Shown in pieces: positions 4,567 to 35,224 of a stretch of 64,000 bases of DNA; the stretch's first letter is position 1; each line of letters opens with the position of its first letter. The position numbers were made by a program, and so were the translations under genes. The stretch covers positions 1 to 64,000 of the forward strand of contig JAFQIY010000043.1 in the NCBI GenBank assembly GCA_017415165.1. The letters are read 5' to 3'. The notes below the pieces were generated by a model. It saw only the letters and a program-made list of their open reading frames with translations. It was not told the origin of the DNA and did no database searches. The DNA comes from Oscillospiraceae bacterium (GTDB taxonomy: Bacteria; Bacillota; Clostridia; Oscillospirales; Ruminococcaceae).

Positions 4567-4570
4567 GCTT

Positions 4571-17764: not shown

Positions 17765-17793
17765 TTGACGCGCAACTTAATTTGTGGTATAAT
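17765..17793 (+). promoter_or_regulatory. Promoter of the lipoprotein region
   Basis: TTGACG (17765-17770), 17-base spacer, TATAAT (17788-17793). Confidence 0.78.
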
Positions 17794-17851
17794 AACAAAA
17801 AATATTTAATTCAATAAAATGTTTTAGGCGAAATGACGAAGGGACACTGCT

Positions 17852-17959: not shown

Positions 17960-17978
17960 TATTTGAAGGGAAGATATT

Positions 17979-18697: not shown

Positions 18698-18734
18698 GAA
18701 CAACAAATGATTTATTGCTTTTGGAGGTAATATT

Positions 18735-19565
18735 ATGGAATTATATGATAGAATCAGATTAAACTCAATTTCGGGGGGATATAATCATTCTCTTGCAGTG
18801 AAGAATAATGGACGAGTAGTTGCCGCAGGAGATAATAATTGGAAACAATGCAATGTTTTATTCTGGAATGATATAATTTCTGTTGCAGCAGGAGACGAGC
18901 ATAGCGTTGGATTGAAATCAAATGGAACAGTTGTTGCTACAGGAGAAAATGATGATGGAGAATGTAATGTGTCACAATGGACAGATATAGTTTCTGTAGC
19001 CGTAGGAATGGGATATACTTTGGGCTTGAAGAATAACGGAACAGTAATATCGACAGGCTATAATGATTGCGGACAACGAAGTGTGCGCAAATGGAACAAT
19101 ATTATTTCAATAAAAGCAGGCAATTCACATTCTCTTGGATTGAAATCAGATGGTACTGTTGTTGCAGTTGGCGATAACGATTTCGGACAGCGAAATGTAT
19201 CATCCTGGAAAAATATCATTTCAATTGAATGTGGTGCATTTACTTCGTTAGGTATTACGTCAGATAATACTGTCATAGCCGCAGGTTCCGATTATGATGA
19301 TGTTACAAGCAGTTGGACAGATATTGTTCAGGTTACGGCAGGTACCGATTTTATAGCGGGGCTAAGAAAAGATGGTACAGTAGTAGCAGTTGGTGAAAAT
19401 AAACATAAACAGTGCAATGTATCCGCATGGAAAAATATAGTTGCGATTTCTGCAGGTGCAAATCATATACTCGGGCTTCGTTCGGATGGTAAAGTAGTTG
19501 CCGCTGGTTATGATGGAGAAGGACAATGCATACTTTGGGGATTTAAGAATATCAAGATATATTAA
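18735..19565 (+). CDS. RCC1-like beta-propeller repeat protein
   Basis: 276 residues made of about seven ~40-residue RCC1-type repeats, each with the pattern W-x-x-I-(I/V)-x-(V/I)-x-A-G-x-x-H-(S/T)-L-G-L-K-x-(N/D)-G-T-V-V-A-x-G-x-N. It should fold as a seven-bladed propeller, and has no signal peptide. Bacterial RCC1 proteins are mostly of unknown role, probably protein binding. GGAGG sits 7 bases before the ATG. It follows the broken lipoprotein gene by 37 bases, so it may belong to the same transcript. Confidence 0.82.
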   Translation: MELYDRIRLNSISGGYNHSLAVKNNGRVVAAGDNNWKQCNVLFWNDIISVAAGDEHSVGLKSNGTVVATGENDDGECNVSQWTDIVSVAVGMGYTLGLKNNGTVISTGYNDCGQRSVRKWNNIISIKAGNSHSLGLKSDGTVVAVGDNDFGQRNVSSWKNIISIECGAFTSLGITSDNTVIAAGSDYDDVTSSWTDIVQVTAGTDFIAGLRKDGTVVAVGENKHKQCNVSAWKNIVAISAGANHILGLRSDGKVVAAGYDGEGQCILWGFKNIKIY

Positions 19566-19603
19566 GCGATTACATAAATTACTTTTAAATAATCGGATCG
19601 AAA

Positions 19604-19630
19604 TTAGCACTCTTAAATTAAGAGTGCTAA
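19604..19630. promoter_or_regulatory. CIRCE-type palindrome (HrcA box) or terminator
   Basis: TTAGCACTC-N9-GAGTGCTAA, a perfect match to the CIRCE consensus, extended to 11-bp arms with loop AAATT. TTTTT follows, so it could also serve as the terminator of the RCC1-like gene. No chaperone gene lies next to it. Confidence 0.6.
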
Positions 19631-19722
19631 TTTTTACTATCTATCCATAAAAATATCACAATTTATACACAATACATAGCTATACTATAATTGCAGAGAA
19701 AAGAAAAAAGAGCCTTGGAAAG
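19604..19722 (+). repeat. Left copy of ~120-bp direct repeat
   Basis: Matches 42359-42478 in the same orientation. After the palindrome loop, which differs, the copies agree over about 95 bases except one C/T change and one extra A. The shared part runs from TTAGCACTC to GCCTTGGAAAG. It lies just past the 3' end of the recombinase gene. Confidence 0.88.
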
Positions 19723-19774
19723 GCGTGTCCGTCACAAAGAAGTTTTTAAACCCTAAGACAAAGGTTGCCTAAAA

Positions 19775-21483
<1,709 letters not shown>

Positions 21484-21835: not shown

Positions 21836-22468
21836 ATGTTATACCTGTCTGAAAATCTTAAAAAGTATCGTTCTCTTAAAAATCTTACACAAGAAGATGT
21901 TGCCGAATATCTTGGTATTACTCCCCAGAGTGTTTCGAAATGGGAGCGAGGTGAAAGTTATCCCGACATAACTTTTCTGCCTGCACTTGCAAATATTTTT
22001 GAAACCAGTATTGATTTACTGATAGGTATGGATACAATCCGTGCCGAACAGACACGCTACAACATACATAAAACCGCCGTTGAACTTCAGCGAAACGGTG
22101 ATTATGCCTCTGCTGAAAAGGTGTACCGTGACGCATTGCTGATTTATCCCAACAATCCGGGAATGATTTTAGGACTTGCAGGGGTGCTTGCATTGCAGGG
22201 TAAATCTGAGGAAGCGATTGAGCTTATGGAACGTGGGCTCCCCATATCCATAAACGAAAAGCAAAAGTCAACGACCCGTGCAGCATTGTGTTTTCTATAT
22301 CTGAAATGCGGCAGAAAAGATAAGGCAGAAGCACTTGCTTCTGAACTACCACACACCAGAGAAAGCCGTGAGGTTATTCAGCCGTTGATTTCAAAAGGGC
22401 TTGATGACAGTGAAATAGATGCAAACATTAAAAATATACTTCTTGGTGATGGAAAAGGAATAAGGTGA
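21836..22468 (+). CDS. XRE regulator with TPR tail
   Basis: 210 residues. An N-terminal helix-turn-helix (LSENLKKYRSLKNLTQEDVAEYLGITPQSVSKWERGES) is joined to tetratricopeptide-like helices: DYASAEKVYRDALLIYPNNP, and KSEEAIELMERGLPIS. AAAGGAGA lies 7 bases before the ATG. This architecture fits a peptide- or protein-responsive repressor. It is divergent from tnpW and may regulate the element. Confidence 0.85.
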   Translation: MLYLSENLKKYRSLKNLTQEDVAEYLGITPQSVSKWERGESYPDITFLPALANIFETSIDLLIGMDTIRAEQTRYNIHKTAVELQRNGDYASAEKVYRDALLIYPNNPGMILGLAGVLALQGKSEEAIELMERGLPISINEKQKSTTRAALCFLYLKCGRKDKAEALASELPHTRESREVIQPLISKGLDDSEIDANIKNILLGDGKGIR

Positions 22469-22509: not shown

Positions 22510-22925
22510 ATAACCCATAATTTTTCTGTAAATAATTTTTCTCTACTATTTCATCACCCTCCTTAAAATTCAGCGGTCTCAGGTGCAACCTGAAATGTGG
22601 GGGTATGCTATCAGCACAGCGGCGGACGGCTGATACTTTTTGAGGGGGTAGCAACTCAAAAAGCCGCTTACCCCGAAAGTATACGGTACTTTCTCTGCTT
22701 GCTACGCATACAAAAAACAAAAGAATACGTATTCCTACTTTTCTTGTTCCGCCCGAATGGGCATTACCCCTCAAAAAAATCTGCAGCGGCTAAGGGCAAA
22801 AAAATACCCCCTTCATAAGTACCTACAAATTCGAACGAATTTTTAAGTCTGATGGAGGGGGATTATGAAATTTTGGAGGATTGTATAAAAAGAAAGGGGA
22901 ATAAATATTGTGGATTACAAAATTC
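22510..22925. other. Non-coding remnant of a mobile element
   Basis: About 400 bases with no convincing gene but much structure: TTTTTGAG-10-CTCAAAAA hairpin at about 22637-22662, CCGCTTACCCCGAAAG near 22668, runs of C/G-rich words (ATTACCCCTC, ATACCCCC), the palindrome AAATTCGAACGAATTT near 22825, and GGAGGGGG at 22853. GC and word use differ from the neighbours. The position beside recombinase and tnpW suggests a decayed mobilisation (oriT-like) region, but no nic site can be shown. Confidence 0.4.
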
Positions 22926-22954
22926 CCGATAACTCAATAAAGAATTATCGGGAT
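22922..22954. terminator. AT-rich hairpin
   Basis: ATTCCCGATAA/TTATCGGGAT stem with a 12-base loop and ATATATTATA after it. Probably a terminator of a lost gene. The ~200 bases that follow, to 23151, hold nothing I recognise. Confidence 0.5.
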
Positions 22955-23151
22955 ATATTATAATGCTTTATATCAGCGGTTTGTTTAGTACAATAATTGT
23001 ATAATCTCTCAATAATGCCAGTTTTTATTTTATAAATACACTGACAAATATACTGATTTGAGTAGTTAAATTGTGAGGAGATTGCAGTGATTAGCAAGTT
23101 TTGGCTAATAATCGACCAAATTGAATTAAAAACATCAAAAGTTGTCGGATA

Positions 23152-23180
23152 TTGAAATCTGACAGCTTTTATGTTATAAT
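23152..23180 (+). promoter_or_regulatory. Lipid operon promoter with possible operator
   Basis: TTGAAA (23152-23157), 17-base spacer, TATAAT (23175-23180). The imperfect inverted repeat GTCGGATattgaaATCTGAC spans the -35 box (about 23143-23163) and could bind a repressor. Confidence 0.72.
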
Positions 23181-23217
23181 ACAATAGATTATTATATTAT
23201 ATAGAAAGGATATTTTT

Positions 23218-23811
23218 ATGGTAAAGCTTGCAGAAATGTATGTAACACTGCTACCCGTTATTCTTGCAGGTATTATGAATATGGTATGGTGCAAGGTAAA
23301 TGTATGTGGTTTTCTGAAAAAGCCTGTTGATTTCGGAAAGAATTTTTCTGACGGAAGAAGAATATTCGGCGATAACAAGACCTTCAAGGGCTTTATCGGA
23401 ATGATTATTTTCGGAGCTGTGTTCTCAGTCCTGTGGGGAATTATTTCCCTGAACAGCGATTCTCTTACAGCCTATAACTATTTTTACAGAAATTATAACA
23501 ATTCTTTTTTGTATAATATTATGATTGGAACACTTATGGGCTTTGCCTACGCTTTATTTGAGCTTCCAAACAGCTTTTTGAAAAGAAGGCTTGATATTAC
23601 TCCTGGTAAAAATGATATAAGCGGTATAAAAAAAGTTTTTTTCATCTTCCTTGACCAGGCCGATTCAATTTTCGGCTGTGTTCTCGTTGTATGCATTTTT
23701 TATCCGTTGCCAATATGGTATTATTTTATATATGTACTGCTTGGTGCAGTAACACATATCATACTGAATATGCTTTTATATTTCTGTCATTTAAGAAAAA
23801 ATATGTTTTGA
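23218..23811 (+). CDS. CarS-like (CDP-archaeol synthase family) CTP:lipid-phosphate cytidylyltransferase
   Basis: 197 residues with five or so membrane segments. Family landmarks of PF01864 (CarS) are clear: DGRRIFGDNKTFKGFIG (about 46-62), ELPNSFLKRRLDITPG (about 117-132), and FFIFLDQADSIFG, where the paired acidic residues bind metal and CTP. Archaeal CarS makes CDP-archaeol from CTP and a dialkyl-glycerol phosphate; bacterial CdsA does the same for phosphatidic acid, and is related but longer. First gene of a seven-gene operon. AGAAAGGA lies 9 bases before the ATG. The lipid substrate is not known. Confidence 0.75.
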   Translation: MVKLAEMYVTLLPVILAGIMNMVWCKVNVCGFLKKPVDFGKNFSDGRRIFGDNKTFKGFIGMIIFGAVFSVLWGIISLNSDSLTAYNYFYRNYNNSFLYNIMIGTLMGFAYALFELPNSFLKRRLDITPGKNDISGIKKVFFIFLDQADSIFGCVLVVCIFYPLPIWYYFIYVLLGAVTHIILNMLLYFCHLRKNMF

Positions 23812-23829
23812 CCGAAAGGATATGTTTGA

Positions 23830-26337
23830 ATGAATATGTATTGTCTTGAAGAAAAGCTTAACGCAGGAGAGGTCGGCAACAAAGCAGCTTTTCTTTCCTT
23901 AATGAAACGTAACGGCTTCAATGTTCCGACAGGTATTGTTCTCGGGAACGATATTTTCACGAAAACTATTTCCGCAAATGATAACAAGCACGAGGTTGAT
24001 ATGCTTTTGGAGGTGCTTTCAAAAAGCAATGCAAAAGAAACCTCCGATAAAATTTCAGAGCTTTATTCCTCGCTTAAATTACATGATGAAGTAAAATCAG
24101 AAATAGAAGAAAAAATAAACATGCAAAAGAAATATGCCGTAAGAAGCAGCGGAATAAAAGAAGATTTAAGCGGATTTTCTTTTGCGGGTCAGTACGATAC
24201 AGTAATCAACGCAAAAGGTATTGACGAAATTTCAGCAGCTATTATAAAATGCTATCTTTCGGCATATTCGGAAACAGTTCTTTCTTATATTGCGGCAAAT
24301 GAATTGTCTGTCGATGAAATCGGAATGTCAGTTATTATTCAGGAAATGATTGATTCCGAGGTAAGCGGAGTCGCATTTACGGTAAATCCTACAAGCGGTT
24401 GTGATAAAGAAATCTTTATTGAGGCAGCAAAAGGTCAGGGCGAAAATCTTGTAAGCGGAAAGGTTGCAGCCGAAAGATATTCCTATAATTGGTGGAATAA
24501 AGAAATTACACTTTCATCAGGAAAGCTTATTTCTGACGACAAAATAAAAGAAATTGCAGATACAGCGCTTCGTATTCAGCAGTTTTTCGGTTACCCATGC
24601 GATATTGAATTTGCATATGAAAATGAAATTCTTTATATCCTTCAGGCAAGAGCAATAACAAAAATTCTTTACGGTGAAATAAAAGACCAATGGACTACCG
24701 CAGACTTTAAGGACGGCGGAGTTTCAGCAACCGTTTGTACCCCGTATATGTGGAGTCTTTATGAATATATCTGGGAAAGCGAATTGCGTAAATTCCTTAT
24801 TGAATCTAAAATCTTGAAGCCTGCCGAGCTTGAAAAAAAGCTTGGAGATATGTTCTACGGAAGACCTTATTGGAATTTAAGCGTTGTAAAATCGGCAATG
24901 GCTAAAGTTCCTGGATACAAGGAAAGAGATTTTGACAGTGAATTGGGTGTTAAAATAACGTATGATGGAGATGGCGTTACTACATCAGTTACTCCTAAAA
25001 CTCTTGTGGATATTGCCATAATGGCATTGGCGCAGAAAAAGATTGTCAAGGAACGCAAGGATAATGCCGAAAAATTCAAATCAGAACTCTTAAACATTTA
25101 TTCCGATTATTTTGCAGATAAGGACAAACCTTTTTCGGCTGACGAAATAAAAGCAAAATGGAAAAAGCTTGTTTTCACTGATTACCTTAACAGCGAAAGC
25201 ACATATTTCCGACAGATTTTTATCAACACAATTCATCAGTCATTGTATAAAGATAAAATCCTGAAGCACACCACAAAGGGCGGTTATTTTACCCTTATAG
25301 GCGGTCTTGATAATATTTCACATCTACTCCCTTTTTATGATATGTGGGAAATAAGCAGAAGTATCAGAAGCGACAAAGCTGCATTTGCTTTCTGGAGCGA
25401 CACGCCTGCTTCTGAAATAGCCGGAAAAACCAACTCTGTTCCTTGTGGCGAAAAGGTTCTGGAGTATATAGAAAAATTCGGGTATCACTCCAAGAAGGAA
25501 CTTGATGTTACATATCCGTCTTTTTATGAGGATATAATCACGGTAATAGATGATGTAAAAAGAACTTGTGCTTTAGGTGATGAATGTTCACCTGAAACCG
25601 ATTCTTTGCGTCTGCGTGAAGATTTCAGCAAAGAGATGGAAAAGGTAAAGAAAAAACTTTCTGCATCAGCTTACAGAAAGTTTGAAAAGAATGTAGCTGA
25701 AATGCGAAAGCTTCTTTGGTGGAGAGAAGAATTCAGAGATGTTTCAACAAGATTTTACTGCATAATCAGAGCGTATACGTTAAGGCTCGCTGAAATACTG
25801 TTCAATGAAAATTATATTTCAGATAAAAATGACATCTGGTTTGCAAAAATTGAAGATATACGAAACTTGCTTGATAATAACATCAAAAAGGAAGAATTCG
25901 CCAGAATAATAGAAAAAAACAAGGTATACTATTCCTCTTTCAGAAATTTTACAAGTGAAAACGAAATCGGCTCAAAATTTGCAAATACATCAAGCAGTGT
26001 TGCAGGTAAGGCGTTATGCGGAATAGGCTGTTCCTGTTTCAAGGCAACAGGAACAGCAAGAGTAATTCACTCTCTTGACGAAACAGACAGATTATGCGAG
26101 GGCGACATCCTTATAACTAAGTTCACCGATACAGGCTGGACAAGTAAATTTGCTATGCTGGGCGGAATTGTTACGGAGTACGGCGGAATACTATGTCACG
26201 CAGCAATAGTTTCAAGAGAATACGGCATTCCCTGCGTTGTCTGCACCGAAAATGCAACAAAGCTTATCAAGGATGGCGAAACTATTACAATAAACGGCGA
26301 AACGGGCGAAATAATAATTGGCGGTGAAAAGAATTGA
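23830..26337 (+). CDS. ATP-grasp/phosphohistidine dikinase of Rph-type layout (copy 1)
   Basis: 835 residues. The N-terminal PEP/pyruvate-dikinase-type ATP-grasp domain has YAVRSSGIKEDLSGFSFAGQ near 105 and VIIQEMIDSEVSGVAFTVNP near 170. A ~450-residue middle region follows with no family match that I can name. The C-terminal swivelling domain carries the phosphohistidine, His790, in GGILCHAAIVSREYGIP. There is no TIM-barrel after it, so this is not a PEP synthase; the order ATP-grasp, acceptor domain, His domain is that of rifampin phosphotransferase. Such enzymes pass the ATP beta-phosphate to an acceptor. The operon suggests a lipid alcohol, which is inference. It starts 18 bases after the CarS-like gene. 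Confidence 0.78.
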   Translation: MNMYCLEEKLNAGEVGNKAAFLSLMKRNGFNVPTGIVLGNDIFTKTISANDNKHEVDMLLEVLSKSNAKETSDKISELYSSLKLHDEVKSEIEEKINMQKKYAVRSSGIKEDLSGFSFAGQYDTVINAKGIDEISAAIIKCYLSAYSETVLSYIAANELSVDEIGMSVIIQEMIDSEVSGVAFTVNPTSGCDKEIFIEAAKGQGENLVSGKVAAERYSYNWWNKEITLSSGKLISDDKIKEIADTALRIQQFFGYPCDIEFAYENEILYILQARAITKILYGEIKDQWTTADFKDGGVSATVCTPYMWSLYEYIWESELRKFLIESKILKPAELEKKLGDMFYGRPYWNLSVVKSAMAKVPGYKERDFDSELGVKITYDGDGVTTSVTPKTLVDIAIMALAQKKIVKERKDNAEKFKSELLNIYSDYFADKDKPFSADEIKAKWKKLVFTDYLNSESTYFRQIFINTIHQSLYKDKILKHTTKGGYFTLIGGLDNISHLLPFYDMWEISRSIRSDKAAFAFWSDTPASEIAGKTNSVPCGEKVLEYIEKFGYHSKKELDVTYPSFYEDIITVIDDVKRTCALGDECSPETDSLRLREDFSKEMEKVKKKLSASAYRKFEKNVAEMRKLLWWREEFRDVSTRFYCIIRAYTLRLAEILFNENYISDKNDIWFAKIEDIRNLLDNNIKKEEFARIIEKNKVYYSSFRNFTSENEIGSKFANTSSSVAGKALCGIGCSCFKATGTARVIHSLDETDRLCEGDILITKFTDTGWTSKFAMLGGIVTEYGGILCHAAIVSREYGIPCVVCTENATKLIKDGETITINGETGEIIIGGEKN

Positions 26338-26339
26338 AA

Positions 26340-26942
26340 ATGTTTCTCGGATACTATAACAAATCGGTAATACTTACATATATAGGTGCAGCAGCTGCAG
26401 TCCTCGGAATGGCATTGGCACTTTCGGGAAAAATGAAATATGCTGTCTTATGCCTTATTGTATGCGGCGTCGCAGACCTCTTTGACGGAATGATAGCAAG
26501 ACGCTGTAAAAGAACGGAAGAAGAAAAAGAATTCGGAATACAGATAGACTCCCTTACCGATATGGTAAGCTTTGCTGTTTTTCCTGTTGTAATTTCCTTT
26601 GCTATGGGAAACACAAGTTGGTATCATATCGCAATCAGTGTGTTTTATGTGCTTGCAGCTATAACAAGGCTGGGCTTTTTCAATGTTTCTGCTTCCATTT
26701 CATCGGAAACAAAATTCTATACAGGATTACCTGTAACCTTTGCGTCTCTGATAGTTGTATCTGCTTTTATTGCAGACAGCATTTTAAGCATCACCGAAAT
26801 AATAATGCCTGTATGTCTTTTTGTCACAGCTGTTCTGTTTATACTTAAAATAAAAATAGCAAAACCGAAGGGAATTGCATATCTGCTGCTCGGACTTCTT
26901 GCAATAGCCCTTGCCGTTGCAGTAATTTTTGTTGGTGGATAA
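26340..26942 (+). CDS. pssA: CDP-alcohol phosphatidyltransferase (PssA-like)
   Basis: 200 residues, mostly membrane helices. The CDP-alcohol signature is present as DLFDGMIAR, an 11-residue spacer, then FGIQIDSLTDMV: DG-x2-AR and G-x3-D-x3-D with a spacer three residues longer than the textbook pattern, as in many clostridial PssA proteins. Known relatives transfer the lipid phosphate of CDP-diacylglycerol (or, in archaea, CDP-archaeol) to serine. The decarboxylase next to it supports serine as acceptor. I choose ATG 26340, since MFLGYYNKSVILTY is the usual family start; an in-frame TTG at 26334 overlaps the previous stop. Confidence 0.85.
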   Translation: MFLGYYNKSVILTYIGAAAAVLGMALALSGKMKYAVLCLIVCGVADLFDGMIARRCKRTEEEKEFGIQIDSLTDMVSFAVFPVVISFAMGNTSWYHIAISVFYVLAAITRLGFFNVSASISSETKFYTGLPVTFASLIVVSAFIADSILSITEIIMPVCLFVTAVLFILKIKIAKPKGIAYLLLGLLAIALAVAVIFVGG

Positions 26943-26943
26943 T

Positions 26944-27822
26944 ATGGCAAGGATTTACGACAGAAAAAGCAAAACCTTTTATGAGGATAAACAGTATGGT
27001 GGCAAAGCTCTTAATTTTCTGTACGGCAATATATTGGGAAGAATTATTCTAAGACTTTTTATTGCAGGAAAAGGCTATTCAAGACTCAATGCAAAAAGAA
27101 ATTCCACAAGAAAATCCACAGAGAAAATTGCCCCCTTTGTCAAAGAATACGGAATTGTTATGAGTGATTTTGAGGACAGGGAGTACAGTTCCTTTTCCGA
27201 TTTTTTCACAAGAAAGCTTGCTGACGGAAAAAGAGTCTTTTCAGCCGAAAAAAATGATTTGATATCCGTAGCAGACAGCAAGCTTCTTTGCTACAGAATT
27301 ACAGATGACGGAAAAATTCCCATAAAAAACAGTATCTATACTGCAAGGGAAATCATAGACGAAGATTTGACAACGGACTTTTATGGTGGATATTGTCTTG
27401 TTTTCAGATTAACGGTTGACGATTACCACAGATATTGCTTTTTCGACGACGGAAAGCTTATCCGAAGCAAATATATAAATGGTAAGCTTCATACCGTGAG
27501 TCCGATTTCTTCGAAAAAATATAAGGTGTTTTCAGAAAACTTCCGTAGTGTTTCGTATATCGAAACGGAAAACTTCGGCACTTGCTATCAAATTGAAATC
27601 GGTGCCTTGCTTGTAGGCAAAATAATAAATTACTCCGCAGAAAGTTTCTTCAAGGGTGAAGAAAAGGGATACTTTGAAATGGGAGGCTCAACCTGCGTTG
27701 TTATGGTAAAAAAAGGCACCGTGACTATTGATGCCGATATACTTGAAAATTCTGAAAAAGGAATTGAAACCAAAGTCCTTATCGGAGAAAGGATAGGAAA
27801 GAAAAATGCTCAGGCGACTTAA
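26944..27822 (+). CDS. psd: Phosphatidylserine decarboxylase proenzyme
   Basis: 292 residues. The self-cleavage site that creates the pyruvoyl group is GGST in YFEMGGSTCVVM near residue 250. The catalytic histidine motif is VDDYHRYCF near 160, and FSDFFTRKL at about 85 is a further family landmark. It decarboxylates phosphatidylserine, or archaetidylserine in archaeal homologues, to the ethanolamine lipid at the membrane. The start ATG at 26944 is one base past the pssA stop. The 3' end overlaps the UbiA-like gene by 17 bases, implying translational coupling. Confidence 0.9.
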   Translation: MARIYDRKSKTFYEDKQYGGKALNFLYGNILGRIILRLFIAGKGYSRLNAKRNSTRKSTEKIAPFVKEYGIVMSDFEDREYSSFSDFFTRKLADGKRVFSAEKNDLISVADSKLLCYRITDDGKIPIKNSIYTAREIIDEDLTTDFYGGYCLVFRLTVDDYHRYCFFDDGKLIRSKYINGKLHTVSPISSKKYKVFSENFRSVSYIETENFGTCYQIEIGALLVGKIINYSAESFFKGEEKGYFEMGGSTCVVMVKKGTVTIDADILENSEKGIETKVLIGERIGKKNAQAT

Positions 27823-28705
27823 TATTTATTTCAAGGAAATGTATCCGCTTATTCCGAGACTTCTGCTTGGCTTTATAGTCTTTGGCGAGATATATTTTAT
27901 TTTGCTTCTCAATTATGGTGTTACGGATTTTTCTTTAGGCATACAGGAAATTGTTGGCGGTATAACGATTTTCGGGTTTCTGATGTTTCTGCGTATTGCT
28001 GATGATTTCAAGGATTACGAATCAGATAAACGACTTTTCCCTGACAGAGCATTCCCAAGCGGAAAGGTTTATAAAAAAGACTTGAACACTGTTGTTGCCA
28101 TAGACCTTGCCGTTATGACAATTCTGAATGTTATTTTTATGAATAACATTTTATTCTATCTGTTTCTTATGACTTATGGAATTCTTATGTCATTGTGGTT
28201 TTTCCAGAAGCATAAAATCAGCAAAAGTCTGCCGCTTGCACTGGTTACGCACAACCCTGTGCAGATGGTACTGAATTTGTATATCATTTCATTCTGCTGC
28301 ATAAAGTACGAGCTTCAGCCATTTACATTAACATCCTTTCTTGTTCTTATGACGCTTTATTTTCCTGCGCTTATATGGGAGATTGCAAGAAAAATCCGTG
28401 CGCCGAAGGATGAAACGGAATACACAACATATTCAAAGCTTTTTGGACATAAAAAATCTACGCTGTTTATCCTTATCCTCACGCTTGTGGATATAGTTAC
28501 AAATCTTCTCCTTGTTATAAATCTTAATATAATCGGTTTCTTTATCCTCATAATCAATGTTACAATAATGACCGCAGAGTTTATTATGTTTATAAAGAAT
28601 CCCGAAAGATTCAAGCTTGTAACAAGAGTTGAAATTTACACATACATTACAGAGGCTACAATGCTTCTGATAATTCCCGCCTATATGATATTTGGAAAGA
28701 TATGA
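27806..28705 (+). CDS. UbiA-superfamily prenyltransferase
   Basis: 299 residues with eight or nine membrane helices. The first metal-prenyl-diphosphate motif is RIADDFKDYESDKRLFPDR (Asp67, Asp70 and Asp74), and the second region is RKIRAPKDETEYTTYSKLFG. UbiA enzymes transfer prenyl chains to aromatic or, in archaea (DGGGP synthase), glycerol acceptors. With a CarS-like gene in the same operon, a prenyl-glycerol acceptor is attractive but unproven. The ATG overlaps psd, and GGATAGGAAAG precedes it. Confidence 0.78.
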   Translation: MLRRLNIYFKEMYPLIPRLLLGFIVFGEIYFILLLNYGVTDFSLGIQEIVGGITIFGFLMFLRIADDFKDYESDKRLFPDRAFPSGKVYKKDLNTVVAIDLAVMTILNVIFMNNILFYLFLMTYGILMSLWFFQKHKISKSLPLALVTHNPVQMVLNLYIISFCCIKYELQPFTLTSFLVLMTLYFPALIWEIARKIRAPKDETEYTTYSKLFGHKKSTLFILILTLVDIVTNLLLVINLNIIGFFILIINVTIMTAEFIMFIKNPERFKLVTRVEIYTYITEATMLLIIPAYMIFGKI

Positions 28706-31089
28706 ATACATTTATTACAACAGATAATTACAAGGAATATACAATCGGAAAAAAAGCAGAACGTCTTTTTATTATGAAAGAGAATGGATTTAATGTTCCG
28801 TCGCTTTTTTGCATAAATGAAATCCCTGAAAAAGAAAAGCTCCTTTCATTCTTGAATGACGGAAGGGAGTTTTCGGTGCGTTCATCTGCACTTTGTGAGG
28901 ATTCCTCTGATAACTCTTTCGCAGGGCAGTTTGACAGCTTTCTTTTTGTAAAAAAAGAAAATGTATACGATAAAATAAAGGATTGCTTTTTGTCTGCCGA
29001 AAAGGAAAATGTTATTTCTTACTGTAAGGAAAACAATATAAATCCTGACACCATAAAAATGTCTGTAATTGTTCAGGAAATGATTGACTCTGATTATTCA
29101 GGCGTTATATTTTCTTCCAATCCGCAGGGCGTTTTAAACGAAAGCGTTATTGTTATGGGAAGCGGAACAGGAGACAATGTTGTTGAAGAAAAAACAGACG
29201 TTACAACCTGTTATTACAACAGAACAGATAAAAAATATTATACCGAAAAAAGCTGTGAAAAATCTCCGTCTATGACAGAGAATTTGATAGAAGAGCTTAT
29301 TTCGTTATGCGAAAAAACAGAAGAAATCTTTGGGAAGCTTATTGATATTGAATTTGCTGTAAAGAACGATGAAGTTTTTATCCTTCAGGTCAGACCAATA
29401 ACGACAATAAATAATAAAACTCCACTTATTCTTGATAACAGCAACATAGTGGAAAGCTATCCCGGAATATCGCTGCCGTTAACAATTTCTTTTGTGAAAG
29501 AAGCGTACAGCGGTGTCTTCAAGGGGCTTGCCAACAGAGTTCTTCGTGATGAAAAAATTGTAAACAGATATAACGAAACTTATTATAATATGACAGGCTC
29601 AGCAAACGGCAGAGTATATTATAAAATCAGTAATTGGTATACTGTATTGTCATTTCTTCCAATGTCAAAAAAGATAATTCCCATGTGGCAGGATATGATG
29701 GGTGTTACGGAAAAATCTGTTGACAGCGATGAAGTAAAGCTTTCATTTTTTAAAAGACTTTCTACATATGTAAATGTTATCTCCGAAGCCTTTTCTGTAA
29801 GAAAAAATATGGAAAAGCTCAACGCTTCATTTCCTGCAACAGAAAAATATTTCAGGGAGAATTTCACCGCAGATATCACTCTCAAAGATGTAAAATCACT
29901 CTATGATGAGATATCAGAAAAGGTTCTTTCCGTATGGGATATAACGCTTCTCAATGATCTTTACGCATTTGTTTTCACGGGACTGCTTAAAGCTGAAATC
30001 AAAAAATCAGGTGTAACAGACTATGAAAAAACAGTTAACGAATTTATAAGCGGTATTTCAAATATAGAAAGTATGAAGCCAATAAGGGCAATGATAAAGC
30101 TTGCTGACTATGATAGAAAAATGCTTGATGAACTGAACGGCTCACAGAAGGAAAAAGAACTTGAAGAAAAGCTTGACGCTTACCCTGAATTTAAAGAAAA
30201 GTTCTATGAATATATTTTACTTTACGGTGACCGTTCGCCTGAGGAATTGAAAATGGAAACTGTTACGTTCAGGGAAAGTCCGTTGCTGCTTATGAAAAAA
30301 ATCAGCGAACTTTCTTCTGATAAGGATATATTTGAAAAAACAAAAAATTCTCTGCTCGATGAAACAGAGAAATCAACAGAAAGCATAACAGCTGATATAA
30401 AAAAGAGAAAAAAACGAATTATGTATTTTGCTGAAAAGGCTTCTGTGGGAATAATGAACAGAGAAATTTCGCGCCTTAACAGAACAAGAATTTACGGAAT
30501 GGTGCGTTCAATGTTCTTGAGAGCAGGAGAAATCTTTTGTTCAGATGGGAAAATATGTGATAAAAGAGATGTTTTCTATCTTACAAAAGATGAGATTTTT
30601 AACGGCAATCCTGATACCTTTGCTGACATAATAGAGAAAAGAAAAAGTGATTACAAAGGATTTTATGAGCTTCCCGCATTTTCAAGAATAATCTTTTCCG
30701 GTAAGGAATTCGATAAAAATATCATCCGCACAGACACTGTTTCAGGCGTTGCTTCAGATGAAAAAACGCTTTACGGAACGCCATCTTCTGCAGGAATAAC
30801 AAAAGGAACAGCAGTTGTTGTTAAAGATGCCTGCAATCCTCCTGATACCAAGGGTAAAATAATTGTTGCAAAAATGACAGACCCGGGCTGGGTGTTTCTT
30901 TTGTCAAATTCAAAGGGAATTATCAGCGAAAAAGGTTCTCTTTTATCGCACACTGCTATTATTTCAAGGGAGCTGAAAATCCCTGCTGTTGTCGGAGTAA
31001 AAAACGCTTCTGAACTGATAAAAGACGGCGATATAATAGAGCTTGACGGCAATAGCGGAATAATAAAAATATGCGGAAAGGAGAAATAG
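28702..31089 (+). CDS. ATP-grasp/phosphohistidine dikinase of Rph-type layout (copy 2)
   Basis: 795 residues, paralogous to the product of 23830 and clearly diverged. ATP-grasp domain: EFSVRSSALCEDSSDNSFAG near 65 and VIVQEMIDSDYSGVIFSSNP near 120. The long middle region (about 250-690) is rich in Lys and Glu. The C-terminal swivelling domain has His750 in SLLSHTAIISRELKIP. No PEP-binding barrel is present. The middle domains of the two copies differ, so they may phosphorylate different acceptors or successive intermediates. It starts with a 4-base ATGA overlap on the UbiA-like gene. Confidence 0.78.
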   Translation: MNTFITTDNYKEYTIGKKAERLFIMKENGFNVPSLFCINEIPEKEKLLSFLNDGREFSVRSSALCEDSSDNSFAGQFDSFLFVKKENVYDKIKDCFLSAEKENVISYCKENNINPDTIKMSVIVQEMIDSDYSGVIFSSNPQGVLNESVIVMGSGTGDNVVEEKTDVTTCYYNRTDKKYYTEKSCEKSPSMTENLIEELISLCEKTEEIFGKLIDIEFAVKNDEVFILQVRPITTINNKTPLILDNSNIVESYPGISLPLTISFVKEAYSGVFKGLANRVLRDEKIVNRYNETYYNMTGSANGRVYYKISNWYTVLSFLPMSKKIIPMWQDMMGVTEKSVDSDEVKLSFFKRLSTYVNVISEAFSVRKNMEKLNASFPATEKYFRENFTADITLKDVKSLYDEISEKVLSVWDITLLNDLYAFVFTGLLKAEIKKSGVTDYEKTVNEFISGISNIESMKPIRAMIKLADYDRKMLDELNGSQKEKELEEKLDAYPEFKEKFYEYILLYGDRSPEELKMETVTFRESPLLLMKKISELSSDKDIFEKTKNSLLDETEKSTESITADIKKRKKRIMYFAEKASVGIMNREISRLNRTRIYGMVRSMFLRAGEIFCSDGKICDKRDVFYLTKDEIFNGNPDTFADIIEKRKSDYKGFYELPAFSRIIFSGKEFDKNIIRTDTVSGVASDEKTLYGTPSSAGITKGTAVVVKDACNPPDTKGKIIVAKMTDPGWVFLLSNSKGIISEKGSLLSHTAIISRELKIPAVVGVKNASELIKDGDIIELDGNSGIIKICGKEK

Positions 31090-31090
31090 A

Positions 31091-32155
31091 ATGTATCTTG
31101 TAAAAAAAGTGACCGAAAATGATTATGAAGATTTTTTAGATTTTCCCTCACGCATACATATAAAAAAAGAGCTTATGCAGAAGCGTTCCGATGAAATTGC
31201 ATTGCTCAAAGGTACACATACGTTGAGCAATTATTTCACATTTACAGCTTTTCTATGTTACTGTGACAGCAAGGTTGTTGCAAGATGTGCTGTAACAATA
31301 TATACCGATAAAGATGAAGCTTATCTCGGCTTTTTTGACAGCGAGGATAATATTGAAGCAGTAAAAGCTATTATGGAAGCAGCCGAAAACTTTGCAAGAG
31401 AAAACGGAATAGTAAAACTTACAGGTCCTGTAGACGCAAGCTTTTGGATTGGATACAGAATGAAATCTAACAAATTTGATGAAAAGCGATTCTTTTCCGA
31501 ACCCTATGGCAAGGACTATTACCCGAAGCTATGGAAGGAAAATGGCTATAAAATTTCCCAGGTGTATGTATCAAACATCTATAAAAAGCTTTCAAAGAAC
31601 GAGGAAGATGACGAAAACTATATAAAAAGATATAACTTTTTTACCAAAAGAGGTTACAGCATTGTTTCTCCGTCAAGAAAAGACTGGGACAAGGTTATCG
31701 GTGAGGTTTACACTCTGCTTGTTAAGCTATACAGTGATTTCCCTGTTTTCTCGCATATTACCGAAAAAGAGTTTAGAGAGATGTATAAGGACCTCAAAAC
31801 AGTTCTTGATTTTTCTATGGTCAAACTTGGATATAAAAATAATAAGCTGGCAGGATTTTTTATTAGCGTTCCCGATTACGGAAATAGACTTTGCGGAAAT
31901 ATAGGACTTCCTGAGATTTTATTTATGCTTAAAAACAGAAGAAGATGTGATAATTACATTCTTCTGTATATTGGCGTTGACGAAAAGCATCTGGGACTTG
32001 GATCTGCTTTGTCACAAGCTATGTTTGAAGAGCTTCGCAGAAAAAGATCTTCATCAATAGGTGCTCTTATTAAAAAGGGCAAGGTGTCCGAAAAATATAT
32101 TGACAATAAAATCCTTTACCAAAGGGAATATCTGCTGTTTGAAAAGCATTTATAA
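31091..32155 (+). CDS. GNAT-like acyltransferase
   Basis: 354 residues, no membrane segment. The N-terminal half (YFTFTAFLCYCDSKVVARCAVTIYTD, AENFARENGIVKLTGPVD) and the C-terminal half (YNNKLAGFFISVPDYGN, LLYIGVDEKHLGLGSALSQAMFEELRRK) look like two GNAT folds. The second holds the acetyl/acyl-CoA pyrophosphate loop HLGLGSALS. The family resembles large bacterial GNAT proteins of unknown substrate. As last gene of the operon, one base after copy 2 of the dikinase, it may acylate the head group or chain; this is inference. Confidence 0.65.
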   Translation: MYLVKKVTENDYEDFLDFPSRIHIKKELMQKRSDEIALLKGTHTLSNYFTFTAFLCYCDSKVVARCAVTIYTDKDEAYLGFFDSEDNIEAVKAIMEAAENFARENGIVKLTGPVDASFWIGYRMKSNKFDEKRFFSEPYGKDYYPKLWKENGYKISQVYVSNIYKKLSKNEEDDENYIKRYNFFTKRGYSIVSPSRKDWDKVIGEVYTLLVKLYSDFPVFSHITEKEFREMYKDLKTVLDFSMVKLGYKNNKLAGFFISVPDYGNRLCGNIGLPEILFMLKNRRRCDNYILLYIGVDEKHLGLGSALSQAMFEELRRKRSSSIGALIKKGKVSEKYIDNKILYQREYLLFEKHL

Positions 32156-32204
32156 CTTGCTCAATTGAGAAATAGTATTCTTATTTTTTATTATTATTCA
32201 ATAA

Positions 32205-32234
32205 ACAGGCACACGGTCGATTCCGTGTGCCTGT
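32205..32234 (+). terminator. Lipid operon terminator
   Basis: Perfect 12-bp GC stem ACAGGCACACGG/CCGTGTGCCTGT with a 6-base loop, 49 bases past the last stop. No clear T-run follows. Confidence 0.65.
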
Positions 32235-32255
32235 CTGCATAACCCGCTGTATTAA

Positions 32256-32444
32256 GTTTTATACGATATTTGTGAAAACTTCTTTATCGCTGTCCAACTA
32301 AACCAAGACTCTTTTTATCCAAACTGTCCTGATCGTACAATGGAGTATGTTGAAGAAAATGACCGTTATGTTATTTTCTCCGATGGAAAAGCTGTTGAAG
32401 AATATTCAGTTACAGTAGAAAGCAAACAGAATGATTTGAATTGA
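32256..32444 (+). pseudogene. 3' fragment of a lost gene
   Basis: An open frame without a proper start reads VLYDICENFFIAVQLNQDSF, then YPNCPDRTMEYVEENDRYVI and FSDGKAVEEYSV to TGA at 32442. An internal ATG at 32340 has no ribosome site. It resembles a truncated C-terminal coding end next to a terminator. Family not recognised. Confidence 0.4.
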
Positions 32445-32486: not shown

Positions 32487-32741
32487 TTAATCCTGAAGCC
32501 CTGAAAGGCATTCTGTATAACAGCATAAACGGCATAATACTGTAGCCGCCTCTTCCGAATTGTGCTCAGAAGCACATCCAGTCAGTCTTGAACATAACTT
32601 TTCTCCCGCTGACATATTAAACTCATTACAAAGCTTTTCCGCAGTATTAAGTCTGCGTAATACATCCGTGCGTATTTCGTTTGTACCGCTGAATGCGATA
32701 TCTGCTATTATTTCTTCAAGCAGTGAAATAAGCTTATCCAT
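32487..32741 (-). CDS. Small protein at the end of the yeh-like operon
   Basis: 84 residues, helical, with five cysteines in the C-terminal half (KLCSRLTGC...VLCRLCCYTEC). Family not recognised. It overlaps the SWIM gene stop by one base, so it is part of the operon, though the other operon members are known without it. Confidence 0.6.
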   Translation of the reverse strand: MDKLISLLEEIIADIAFSGTNEIRTDVLRRLNTAEKLCNEFNMSAGEKLCSRLTGCASEHNSEEAATVLCRLCCYTECLSGLQD

Positions 32742-34138
32742 CAGATTGTCAGCTCCTTTCCATTGCCGAAATAAATGTTAACTATACCTTCTGAATTAAT
32801 TTCAGCAATCGCTTCTGTAATGCCGCCCATTCTTTTTAACAGAAAATATCTGTCAGCGGCAGGCTTATCGGCATATGCTTCAATACTCTTTACAGCCAGT
32901 GAAGTGAGTTCGCTGTAAGCTGTTTCACAATTGAATTTGCCATCCTTTCCAATTATGGAATAATAAAGAATTTGTTCACCTTTATCAAAATAAGCATCAA
33001 TGTTTTCTGCACTTACAACAGCATAACGTGGCTTTTTTTGATATGAAAAGTAATCATATTCTTCCTCAGGAGCAAATTCAAAAGCTTCTTCAGGTAAATC
33101 ATTACATCCGATTTTATTTGATGTTACGCAGGTTGTCTGTGAAGATGATGATATTTTATCATTAGAATCAGCTTTACATCCGATAAGCGATAACTTTCGT
33201 CCGCTTATATTTTCGATGGACATCTTATTCTGCCAGTGAGAGTGTGCACGCATAAGCTTATATAGTGATTTCAGACTTCCTGAGTCAGAGGTTTTGCTGT
33301 AAATATCCGATATGGCTGAATTATAGGTGTAAAACTTATTCTGTTCTGTCTCAAACATTACTGCTGTGAGACCCGCAAAACCTGATTTGCTTCTGTACGG
33401 GTAAACACCAAGGCAGATAAATTCTCGTTTGCCGATATTTTCGTATTCATTACCCGAAAAGAGCAAAGCCTTCCCCTGCTCTTTGAGAGAAGCCTCCGCA
33501 GTATTGTATATCCTGCAAATTCTCATTGCCGCTGTAAGCTGATTAAAGCCTGCTTTCTTTTCGAGCATAAGCTCAATATCTTCTGCCGCACTTCTGCAAA
33601 GCCGCCCTATTTTTCTGTGTACGGTTGGTGCTGTAAGAGAAAGCCGTGACAAAATTTCCGAGTCATTTTTTGTACAGCTGATAATTCCTTTTGCTAGGAT
33701 ACCCGTCATTGTTTTCATAACTTCATCAAGATATTTTTCATCAGCTTTAATTTCTTCGGAAGTCTGTTTATCTTGTGCAGATGGCTTTTGAATATCAGCT
33801 TTTGCATTTTCTTCAACACAGTCCTCATTACCATCAGAAAAGACAGATACCGCAATAGCCGCAGCAATAATATGTCTGCATATGGTTTTGGAAGGACAGC
33901 TGCATTTACAGCTTGCCAATTCTCCGCACATCGAAACTTCAGCGTCGGGAAGCTTAACTTTCAGATATTCTTCTGTCACTTCAAGCCTTGTTTCACACGC
34001 TTCAATATCCTTCAGCGCACGCTTGTAGGTGCCCTTGTTGGAAGCGGCAACAAGCTTTTCTTCGGTAAATTGTCCGCCTATTCTGCGCGCATAAGCCTCA
34101 GCGGCGTTATCGGCTATGATATTATATTTCCTATCCAT
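32741..34138 (-). CDS. SWIM zinc-finger protein (YehQ-like)
   Basis: 465 residues. The SWIM motif CKCSCPSKTICRH (CxC...CxH) is at about 98-110, preceded by LEVTEEYLKVKLPDAEVSMC, a typical lead-in. The rest is helical and poorly conserved. SWIM fingers bind DNA or proteins. E. coli YehQ holds the same place in an otherwise matching operon. It overlaps the VWA gene by 25 bases. Confidence 0.82.
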   Translation of the reverse strand: MDRKYNIIADNAAEAYARRIGGQFTEEKLVAASNKGTYKRALKDIEACETRLEVTEEYLKVKLPDAEVSMCGELASCKCSCPSKTICRHIIAAAIAVSVFSDGNEDCVEENAKADIQKPSAQDKQTSEEIKADEKYLDEVMKTMTGILAKGIISCTKNDSEILSRLSLTAPTVHRKIGRLCRSAAEDIELMLEKKAGFNQLTAAMRICRIYNTAEASLKEQGKALLFSGNEYENIGKREFICLGVYPYRSKSGFAGLTAVMFETEQNKFYTYNSAISDIYSKTSDSGSLKSLYKLMRAHSHWQNKMSIENISGRKLSLIGCKADSNDKISSSSQTTCVTSNKIGCNDLPEEAFEFAPEEEYDYFSYQKKPRYAVVSAENIDAYFDKGEQILYYSIIGKDGKFNCETAYSELTSLAVKSIEAYADKPAADRYFLLKRMGGITEAIAEINSEGIVNIYFGNGKELTI

Positions 34139-35214
34139 TCAGCCAGCTCCTCAGGGGTTATTGCCGCAACGTCTGCACCCATCCCTGCAATATATTTAGC
34201 CGCAGGACGGTTGTAGCACGGCTCACTTTCATAATCAAGCGCGGGCAGAACAATAAGTTTTGCGCCGCTTTCAAGTATATCCTTGCATTTTCTGTATACT
34301 CTGCGAATGTCGCCGCCCTCGTAAAGGTCGGTAATCAGAATAACAATTGTCTTTGCAGGTGCAGTCATAAGACTTTCACCGTAACAAAGCGCCCTGTAAA
34401 TGTCCGTGCCTCCTCCAAGCTGAACCCTCATCAAAATGTCTGTCGCACTTGATGTATGTTCACTCAAATCAGCGATAGCTGTGTCAAAAACAGCAAGTTT
34501 CGTGCGCAGGAATGGCAGCTTTGCGAAAATGCTTGCCATTACCGATGTGTAAATAACCGAATTGCACATGCTTCCGCTCTGGTCGGCAAGTATGATAATA
34601 TCCCACGGATTATAACGTTTGACCGTGTTGCTGAAATACAGTCTGCGTGGGATAATTGTGCCATACTCCTTGCTGTAGTTTTTAAGATTTCTTTCAATAG
34701 TTTTTTTGAAATCAAAGTTTCTGTAAACCTTGTAGTATGACTGCGTGCTTGAAAGCTTCTTACCGTAAAAGCTTCTGCGTATCGCAACCTCAAGCTTCTT
34801 TGAAATTTCTTCTGCCGCACGTCTGATAACATCATCAGCCTGCTTCCGTACATTCTGAGGAATTATATTTCTGAACGAAAGCAATTTTCCAAGCAAGGTA
34901 ATATCAGGTTCAAGGTTTTTGAGAATTTCTGAATTAGTCAGCATCTCATCAATTCCGTATTTATTAAGAGCGTCCTTCTGCATTATTTCTGCCGCACTTT
35001 TCGGGAACAGCTTCTTGACCTTTCCAAGCCATTCGGGTACAGAGAAAACAGATGCACCACGTCCTCCGCTGCCATCGCTTCTTATACCTCGTCCGCCTGA
35101 ATATTCTCTGTCATAGAGAAAAGCGAGTGCATCCTCGGTTTCTGCGTAACTTCCGTCAAGAGGGAGCTTTTCTTCCGCAAACTGACCCAGTATAAGCCGC
35201 CATCGTGACAGCAT
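34114..35214 (-). CDS. VWA-domain protein (CoxE/YehP-like)
   Basis: 366 residues. The C-terminal von Willebrand A domain has the metal site (MIDAS) DQSGSM near residue 215, then the downstream Thr/Asp in GGTDIYRAL and ITDLYEGG. The N-terminal helical half contains GGRGIRSDGSGGRGAS. VWA proteins of this kind work with MoxR ATPases in assembling or remodelling targets. I choose ATG 35214: GAGG sits 8 bases upstream, while earlier in-frame ATGs run into the DUF5682 gene. Confidence 0.85.
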   Translation of the reverse strand: MLSRWRLILGQFAEEKLPLDGSYAETEDALAFLYDREYSGGRGIRSDGSGGRGASVFSVPEWLGKVKKLFPKSAAEIMQKDALNKYGIDEMLTNSEILKNLEPDITLLGKLLSFRNIIPQNVRKQADDVIRRAAEEISKKLEVAIRRSFYGKKLSSTQSYYKVYRNFDFKKTIERNLKNYSKEYGTIIPRRLYFSNTVKRYNPWDIIILADQSGSMCNSVIYTSVMASIFAKLPFLRTKLAVFDTAIADLSEHTSSATDILMRVQLGGGTDIYRALCYGESLMTAPAKTIVILITDLYEGGDIRRVYRKCKDILESGAKLIVLPALDYESEPCYNRPAAKYIAGMGADVAAITPEELAEWIGNIIS

Positions 35215-35224
35215 TTCCATATCC

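Follow-up and report, generated by a model that had tools for sequence, protein, structure and literature searches.

A recurrent, modular and horizontally moving lipid operon of gut-type Clostridia

What kind of lipid would be made by an operon that places homologues of archaeal polar-lipid enzymes beside two dikinases? The locus lies in a 64,000-nucleotide stretch of contig JAFQIY010000043.1 from an Oscillospiraceae bacterium (hereafter, the window). As read from the sequence, seven plus-strand open reading frames run head to tail across 23218..32155, and with the junctions reread, both the seven-gene operon and its coordinates hold as first described. Judging by its sequences, the gene set seems to assemble an uncommon membrane lipid out of exchangeable parts, and full-text searches of the open-licence literature found no papers describing it. 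On balance, we read the operon as a transferable modular lipid-assembly line composed of a core and a head-group module.

Gene families and the archaeal comparison

The first gene, of the head-group module, encodes a CarS-like CTP:lipid-phosphate cytidylyltransferase (23218..23811) of a conserved family; it passes the cut-off of PF01864 (7.4e-21) and scores 82.4 bits against NF003114 (cut-off 148). A gap of 18 separates it from DikA (23830..26337; 835 aa), a dikinase of the rifampin-phosphotransferase (RPH) type that matches PPDK_N (3.5e-55) and PEP-utilizers (1.7e-23) and for which we propose the role of lipid-alcohol kinase. The next gap is 2 if the PssA/archaetidylserine-synthase-like CDP-alcohol phosphotransferase (26340..26942; PF01066, CDP-OH_P_transf, 1.2e-12) begins at its best start, ATG 26340; the alternative, TTG 26334, gives an overlap of 4. 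After a gap of 1 comes Psd, a phosphatidylserine-decarboxylase-like protein (26944..27822; start ATG 26944, alternative TTG 26929) that matches PF02666 (PS_Dcarbxylase, 1.1e-46, 159.5 bits) and scores 251.6 bits against NF001941, below the cut-off of 371. Psd overlaps by 17 with the gene for a UbiA-like membrane protein (27806..28705), which overlaps by 4 with DikB (28702..31089; 795 aa), a second RPH-type dikinase (NF004882, 3e-250, with PPDK_N and PEP-utilizers); a gap of 1 then precedes a GNAT-type acyltransferase (31091..32155; 354 aa).

The first reading of these genes as a lipid operon is borne out. The Asp, Gly, Ala and Arg residues of what we take to be the CDP-alcohol motif are invariant in 13 aligned PssA proteins. 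The GGS of Psd is invariant in 11 aligned, within a GGST that is presumably an LGST/GGST-type processing site. Because PssA and Psd are both present, and this Psd is the sole PF02666 match found in the window genome (93% complete), the ethanolamine lipid proposed in the preliminary description is likely for the window version, with ethanolamine as its head group.

The UbiA-like protein belongs to the NF010118/PRK13592 family (4e-126), with 420.5 bits against a cut-off of 443 that was passed by one of five strong matches in a class sample; no Pfam model, Pfam UbiA included, matched at E<=0.01. Among solved structures its profile is nearest to DGGGP synthase 6m31 (4e-6), presumably an archaeal enzyme, and next to chlorophyll a synthase (0.12). 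A quinone-type assignment, raised at the outset as an example of another function for this protein, thus found no support. The first Asp-rich motif is kept as ADDxKDxExD in 83/83 aligned proteins (a set that counts the L011/L015 contig twice and leaves out L013, L095, L096 and L117), and where the second would be expected all 83 carry ExxRKxx(A/S)PxxE. The comparison takes the canonical form of the second motif as given; the first was seen in the 6m31 alignment. In L095 and L096 motif 2 takes yet another form, and the L117 protein is just 167 aa long; these changes and this short protein argue against an ordinary prenyltransferase. An isoprenoid chain in the product is nevertheless possible, given the DGGGP synthase match and an HMG-CoA reductase in the operon of one distant relative. 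A scan of the phylum beyond the window genome added four weak UbiA matches (L101 and L108-L110), of which L108-L110 were dropped as operon relatives since family profiles found no operon partners there; scans of plasmids and of viral contigs gave no UbiA match.

Could this be an archaeal pathway after all? In an archaeal-type diether scheme, the UbiA-like protein would be a DGGGP synthase, and CarS, PssA and Psd would lead to archaetidylethanolamine. The 6m31 match fits, as do the Pfam CarS-like match, the archaetidylserine synthase model NF038087 as best match of PssA, and an HMG-CoA reductase within the operon of a distant relative, L096. However, PssA reaches 84.6 bits with NF038087 (cut-off 240) and 64.1 with TIGR04217 (cut-off 200), and the NCBIfam models with archaeal names for CarS, PssA and Psd all remained below cut-off. 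GGGP synthase (PF01884/PcrB), noted at first as missing from the window, is also unmatched in the whole window genome (93% complete), and 45 carrier genomes yielded one clear match and four weak ones (E 2e-4 to 6e-4). Motif 2 is replaced in every aligned UbiA-like protein, and the GNAT protein and an associated acyl ligase indicate an acyl chain. We regard the diether scheme as very improbable. On the near absence of GGGP synthase, the archaeal models and motif 2, the canonical archaeal pathway was rejected as it stands; the archaeal-type reading of the preliminary description holds only in part, with the Pfam CarS-like model passed. Glycerol-1-phosphate dehydrogenase was set aside as a test, because PF13685 is uninformative, with matches in 11/11 carriers and 13/14 controls. 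A G1PDH-like gene near the L012 operon we regard as incidental, lying behind fucosidase-like and MnmA-like genes (all three recognised by eye).

Core, kinase exchange and head groups among relatives

The arrangement is not due to chance because the same genes recur together in 80 loci (the best 80 of 191 relatives, to which all counts of loci below refer). L011 was dropped as sharing a contig with L015, and L106 and L107 as sharing contigs with L021 and L022; L009, L010, L012, L013, L095, L096, L105 and L117 stand outside the 80, and PssA counts take in two weak matches (L035 and L039).

The comparison led to several observations. First, UbiA-like, DikB and GNAT form the usual core, with DikB in 55/55 and GNAT in 53/55 long-flanked loci. 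A frequent core partner is an acyl-AMP ligase (PF00501, 2.8e-47), whose gene adjoins that of GNAT. Second, CarS occurs in 59/80 loci, and all 59 have exactly one kinase, DikA in 17 and a DgkA-type diacylglycerol kinase in the other 42; DikA and DgkA occur together in 0/80. Among cultured carriers, Pseudobacteroides cellulosolvens DSM 2933 (locus L031) has the order CarS-DikA-PssA-Psd-UbiA-DikB-GNAT-ligase, and Ruminococcus flavefaciens YRD2003 (locus L070) has the form with DgkA. Third, neither kinase, nor any head-group gene, occurs in the 13 well-flanked loci that lack CarS; these comprise UbiA, DikB, ligase and GNAT (11 loci) or UbiA and DikB (2 loci). Meanwhile, 14 well-flanked loci have DgkA and CarS but no PssA or Psd, so ethanolamine is not general. 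One locus outside the 80, L096 (DikB-UbiA-CarS-HMG-CoA reductase/APH-PssA), has CarS without an operon DikA or DgkA and carries a fused APH/EcKL kinase domain instead.

On a UbiA+DikB tree, better resolved than one of UbiA alone, a single change suffices for the DikA/DgkA exchange, which may therefore in effect be one evolutionary event. The CarS-less state takes two changes on that tree, one among DgkA loci and one among DikA loci, the latter at a point where the program warned of long branches meeting. The UbiA-alone tree has five changes among the three states.

A different head-group gene, BtaA (PF11899), is above cut-off in 3/291 class genomes, at loci L013, L095 and L117. All three BtaA genes adjoin a DikB-like gene (509, 587 and 576 bits) and a UbiA-like gene, broken in L095 and recognised by eye alone in L117; L117 has no GNAT match. 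By eye, a 445-aa membrane protein of L013 and L095 resembles the dolichol/phytol-kinase type, but neither Pfam (E<=1) nor NCBIfam (E<=0.1) yielded a matching model, and we give it no assignment. BtaA acts on diacylglycerol, to which it adds homoserine, according to the passages on this enzyme in PMC8752610.

These patterns bear on whether the core belongs to the lipid at all. The operon might instead yield an ordinary diacyl ethanolamine phospholipid, with UbiA, DikB and GNAT serving an unrelated co-transferred product such as a lipid-linked signal, an N-acyl amine or a phenolic lipid. This would suit the 13 core loci without head-group genes, in which CarS was unmatched in 11/11 genomes tested, and the many loci without PssA and Psd. 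Yet two unrelated head-group kinds, CarS/PssA/Psd and BtaA, both join DikB and UbiA-like genes, as would be unlikely for a non-lipid core product, and we rate this reading as rather unlikely. The tie of CarS to one of DikA or DgkA and the BtaA variants together argue for a diacylglycerol-like alcohol as the probable core product, and for DikA as a probable lipid-alcohol kinase related to rifampin phosphotransferase.

The GNAT protein of the window has no Pfam or NCBIfam match at E<=0.01 and, by profile, no solved relative at E<=0.1; Acetyltransf_1 (PF00583) is matched by 8/23 proteins in its alignment. Amines are the usual acylation targets of GNAT enzymes. Conceivably, GNAT and the adjoining ligase attach an acyl chain to the amine of the ethanolamine or homoserine head group to form an N-acyl phospholipid, with UbiA and DikB performing a separate modification; both Psd and BtaA would supply a free amine. 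GNAT is found, however, in loci without an amine-forming gene (14 with DgkA, CarS and the core; 11 with core and ligase), and we think N-acylation distinctly unlikely. Bacterial ceramide synthesis was considered as a parallel for GNAT plus ligase, and no literature for it was found.

Dikinases and a proposed assembly scheme

Both dikinases contain an ATP-grasp domain, a central domain and a C-terminal phosphohistidine domain. The DikA profile matches solved structures 5hv2/5fbs at 1e-107 and the DikB profile matches 5fbs at 4e-103; DikB scores 832.7 bits against NF004882, below its cut-off of 850. K18, R105 and H790 of DikA align with Lys22, Arg117 and His825 of RPH-Lm, and R60 and H750 of DikB with Arg117 and His825. 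DikB K18 is invariant in its own family alignment. With RPH-Lm as best solved match, DikA and DikB might be drug- or metabolite-inactivating phosphotransferases travelling with lipid genes. Against this, they score 274.6 and 200.6 bits with the rifamycin phosphotransferase model NF041857 (cut-off 999), residues 280 to 506 of DikA do not align with RPH, and DikA is strictly linked to CarS; drug inactivation seems scarcely credible to us.

The claim that the dikinases supply lipid phosphates is probably right for at least one of them, DikA, which excludes DgkA beside CarS. The operon DgkA was identified by PF01219 (1e-21, one copy checked), and all 12 DgkA-type carrier genomes tried (of 42) have a PF01219 match, a single copy in 8. 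The window genome (93% complete) has no DgkA match, an absence that is common (64/148 family genomes), and DgkA lies elsewhere in the genome in 7/16 DikA-type carriers tried (of 20).

From gene content, module exchange, family identity, the alignment of dikinase catalytic residues and a recently shared block, all observed here, we infer the following reactions. The core (UbiA-like, DikB, GNAT and often the acyl-AMP ligase) would make a lipid that is hydrophobic, resembles diacylglycerol and bears a free hydroxyl. DikA would phosphorylate this hydroxyl, converting ATP to AMP and Pi via a phosphohistidine, as in rifampin phosphotransferase. CarS would then form the CDP-lipid, PssA would add serine, and decarboxylation by Psd would give an ethanolamine phospholipid. 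For the core itself, the scheme that we judge likeliest, and hold tentatively, is that DikB phosphorylates an allylic or prenyl alcohol, the UbiA-like protein couples it by an ether bond to glycerol or an acylglycerol, and GNAT adds an acyl group. Such a scheme would leave a phosphate-free product in need of DgkA or DikA before CarS, and would explain the loss of the second Asp motif.

Transfer, significance and known systems

The whole operon lies inside a recently shared block (22548..32316, plus strand) that is 98.6% identical to DNA of L016 over 9770 columns. Beside it is a large serine recombinase (19775..21409, minus strand), whose homologue adjoins the operon in L016 (76.6% DNA identity, 75.4% protein identity) and which is the only other DNA of more than 300 bp common to the window and L016. 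Carried in such a block, with a recombinase next to it, a lipid operon would amount to a horizontally transferred membrane trait. The preliminary description mentions neither the core trio nor the DikA/DgkA exchange, and it does not cover the BtaA variants, the association with an acyl ligase or the recent transfer.

The boldest extension is a new class of mixed isoprenyl-acyl glycerolipids, built by a motif-2-less UbiA-like enzyme from a prenyl monophosphate donor made by DikB, with DikA the first member of the PEP-synthase/RPH fold to act as a lipid kinase and with exchangeable serine/ethanolamine or homoserine heads, spread horizontally among gut Clostridia; as a whole, we consider it rather unlikely. 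Should DikA prove to be a lipid kinase, a new class of substrate would be added to the PEP-synthase/RPH fold, a bacterial enzyme group that the abstract of PMC4844700 terms large and unexplored. Should the core product be an isoprenyl-acyl lipid, hybrid membranes would be made by many rumen and gut Clostridia that lack the first archaeal enzyme, a point of relevance to the lipid divide. In both cases, the operon offers a testable module code, with a constant core and an exchangeable kinase and head group.

Several known systems resemble parts of this operon. The heptaprenylglycerol pathway of Bacillales uses PcrB, and its O-acetyltransferase YvoF is not known to be a GNAT protein. If our reading holds, the two systems share a prenyl chain and an acyl group on glycerol, going by the account of YvoF in parts of PMC9179154; they differ in PcrB, unmatched in the window genome. 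The archaeal ether-lipid pathway and its bacterial form in Cloacimonetes, as outlined in sections of PMC7852524, have homologues here of UbiA, CarS, PssA and Psd, but the window genome has no GGGP synthase match, UbiA motif 2 is altered, and dikinases, GNAT and an acyl ligase are added. Betaine-lipid synthesis, in the passages of PMC8752610 noted above, shares the BtaA gene with distant loci L013, L095 and L117, whereas here BtaA stands beside UbiA-like and DikB-like genes. DgkA (PF01219), a prokaryotic diacylglycerol/undecaprenol kinase, takes the same module place beside CarS as DikA; the likeness is one of working, as DikA matches PPDK_N and PEP-utilizers only, has no homology to DgkA and belongs to an unrelated family. 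Finally, DikA shares with RPH-Lm, in the portion of PMC4844700 that treats its structure, the order of ATP-grasp, central substrate and C-terminal His domains and the counterparts of its catalytic residues, but differs in a diverged central domain, a score far below the rifamycin model's cut-off and its linkage to lipid genes.

Recurrence and transfer of the operon

The operon is real, recurrent, and mobile. Its seven plus-strand genes (23218-32155), with gaps of 1-18 or overlaps of 4-17 bases, lie in a genome of 2.62 Mb in 75 contigs. By family models and alignments, their products are a CarS-like protein, DikA, a PssA-like protein, Psd, a UbiA-like membrane protein, DikB, and a GNAT-type protein, DikA and DikB being dikinases of the rifampin phosphotransferase (RPH) type. 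The preliminary description of the operon was accurate. Among the papers found by full-text literature searches, none describes this gene set.

A block at 22548-32316 is 98.6% identical to locus L016 (Clostridiaceae bacterium isolate AS08sgBPME_309). The only other DNA longer than 300 bp common to the window and the 21 kb L016 locus is a serine recombinase gene (76.6%), which sits beside the block in both. Locus L015, on a contig of 9154 bp that stops at the operon, is 99.4% identical throughout. A chimera arising in the assembly of a single metagenome genome might account for the L016 match, but near-identical copies of the block occur in three records (window, L015, and L016). G+C content is 36.2% in the operon versus 41.5% in window positions 1-19774 plus 34139-64000. 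Of 81 loci searched, two hold a recombinase homologue (L016 and, with a weak match, L040), so the link between operon and recombinase is seen in the window and L016 only. An HTH + TPR regulator gene (21836-22468; HTH_3, 5.7e-16) sits between recombinase and block in the window; in L016 the two are ~150 bp apart and this gene is not between them. Just downstream, convergent with the operon, minus-strand genes occupy adjoining or overlapping frames at 32487-37558. Their products are an 84-residue protein, one of 465 residues that includes a stretch rich in Cys and His, a VWA-like protein, and one of 777 residues; by eye, the genes resemble what we take to be the SWIM/VWA/DUF5682 operon type. A tmRNA gene lies at 42603-42952 (minus strand).

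Searching named genomes with the UbiA-like protein as query yielded 191 relatives, the best 80 of which define loci L015-L094. Titles among these 80 include Ruminococcus, Lachnospiraceae, other Clostridia, Erysipelotrichaceae, and one Desemzia, the nearest named operon relatives of the window being titled Clostridia, Clostridiaceae, Ruminiclostridium, and Oscillospiraceae. In whole-genome samples, the family is rare and scattered: it occurs in 5 of 291 class genomes (E < 1e-100; three further weak matches) and 4 of 148 genomes from the family, both counts including the window's genome, and is absent from the sole other genome listed under the window's genus among those 148.

Gene sets and the kinase beside CarS

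Gene content was read with family profiles built in this analysis and run on all six frames. Fifty-five of the best 80 loci are well flanked (at least 4.5 kb before and at least 5 kb after the UbiA-like gene); DikB is present in all 55 and GNAT in 53, and these form a core with the UbiA-like gene. Around this core, well-flanked loci hold DgkA, CarS, PssA, and Psd (12 loci, plus 4 with an acyl-AMP ligase), DgkA and CarS (12, plus 2 with ligase), CarS, DikA, PssA, and Psd (8, plus 2 with ligase), CarS, DikA, Psd, and ligase (2), or ligase and nothing else (11); two loci have UbiA and DikB alone. Gene order varies, with PssA and Psd 3' of the ligase in L009, L046, and L050 and a reshuffled set in L105, and the genes nonetheless remain together. 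In L047, unlike the remaining loci, more than 3 kb (~10700-14180) separates the UbiA-like gene from DikB, possibly an inserted element.

CarS is found in 59 of the best 80 loci, and all 59 hold exactly one kinase: in 17 it is DikA and in 42 a small DgkA-type kinase. The two never occur together in the 80. In three more DikA loci (L023, L025, and L084), the sequence stops short of the expected CarS position. Neither kinase occurs in the 13 well-flanked loci without CarS. Thirteen genomes have a well-flanked locus devoid of head-group genes; in the 11 of them that we examined, CarS was found in none and DgkA had no match in 10, these being mostly metagenome assemblies that may be incomplete.

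Exact as it is in the 80, the DikA/DgkA exclusion may be a single evolutionary swap, because the exchange needs one change on a UbiA + DikB tree (78 rows). On that tree, which carries a long-branch warning in its DikA part, the CarS-less state takes two changes, one per kinase type; the three states take 5 changes on a tree of UbiA alone. The more independent line of evidence is the double loss of the kinase together with CarS. PF01219 matches one operon-borne DgkA copy at 1e-21 and finds a match in the genomes of all 12 DgkA-type carriers tried (out of 42), a single copy in 8. It has no match in the window's genome and is likewise missing from 64 of the 148 family genomes; 7 of 16 DikA carriers tried (of 20 named) have DgkA elsewhere. 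An RPH-type dikinase in the position of a lipid kinase is the most interesting and testable point.

The dikinases and the UbiA-like protein

The best solved-structure match of both dikinase profiles is Listeria rifampin phosphotransferase (5fbs, 5hv1, and 5hv2; DikA 1e-107, DikB 4e-103); entry 5FBS appears in PMC4844700. Scores against the rifamycin phosphotransferase model are far below cut-off for both. Single-sequence alignments with RPH cover DikA 16-279 and 507-828 and DikB 56-237 and 490-790; they equate RPH Lys22, Arg117, and His825 with DikA K18, R105, and H790, and Arg117 and His825 with DikB R60 and H750. R105 and H790 are invariant and K18 is present in at least 90% of 17 aligned DikA proteins, while 18 aligned DikB proteins never vary at K18, R60, or H750. 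DikA residues between 280 and 506 do not align with RPH, consistent with a different substrate.

The UbiA-like protein scores 420.5 bits against NF010118, slightly below the model's 443, and matches no Pfam model at E<=0.01. A profile of 13 relatives matches DGGGP synthase 6m31 (4e-6) across the half that holds the first motif, and the following solved sequences stand at 0.12. All 83 aligned proteins have the first motif, ADDxKDxExD, and ExxRKxx(A/S)PxxE at the position of what we take to be the canonical second Asp motif. Because this position is altered in 83 of 83, an ordinary diphosphate-using prenyltransferase seems doubtful, and we infer that the enzyme may use a monophosphate donor.

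Head-group routes and the archaeal comparison

Among distant loci, L013 (found with the UbiA model) encodes a UbiA-like protein that retains ExxRKxx(A/S)PxxE, a DikB-like protein, BtaA (PF11899), a membrane protein of 445 aa, GNAT, and an AMP ligase. The set recurs in L095 in a different order, with the UbiA-like gene split over two frames (8087-9080, one TGA reported inside), either because it is a pseudogene or perhaps through faulty assembly. L117 has a DikB-like gene (576 bits), then BtaA, then two ligases, and no GNAT match. The 167-residue product encoded before its DikB (6293-6796), a membrane protein with no profile match, has a first-motif-like stretch and was assigned as UbiA-like by eye only; directly preceding it is a WbuX-like N-acetyl sugar amidotransferase homologue (5232-6296; TIGR03573 2.8e-41, under cut-off). 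BtaA is over cut-off in these 3 of 291 class genomes and weakly matched in 3 more. According to PMC8752610, BtaA moves aminocarboxypropyl from SAM onto diacylglycerol.

L096, outside the 80, holds DikB, UbiA, CarS, an HMG-CoA reductase/APH/EcKL fusion, and PssA on one strand, neighboring genes overlapping by 4 bases or standing at most 44 apart, and has neither DikA nor DgkA in the operon. The fusion (6131-8902; PF00368, 343 bits) joins the reductase to an APH/EcKL-type domain, possibly a third type of kinase to accompany CarS. By eye, the L095 and L096 UbiA-like proteins lack ExxRKxx(A/S)PxxE. That two unrelated head-group routes attach to DikB and the UbiA-like gene suggests a diacylglycerol-like alcohol as the product of the core.

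In the pathway we propose, the core enzymes would make a lipid alcohol, DikA would phosphorylate it, and CarS would activate the product with CTP; PssA would then attach serine, Psd would give the ethanolamine form, and GNAT would add an acyl chain, with the ligase in many loci. DikB, the constant partner of UbiA, might activate an alkyl or prenyl donor, a tentative role that it may well not have and that we favor because, were the acceptor phosphorylated instead, the later DgkA/DikA step would be superfluous.

The archaeal label first given to the operon holds in part by homology and fails as a pathway claim. The window's genome has no match to GGGP synthase (PcrB). Among 45 carrier genomes, distant loci counted, one has a clear PcrB (1e-62) and four more have weak matches (2e-4 to 6e-4), one barely over cut-off with neighboring matches summed. 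In this, the window's genome differs from Cloacimonetes, proposed makers of archaeal lipids, which hold both GGGPS and DGGGPS according to PMC7852524.
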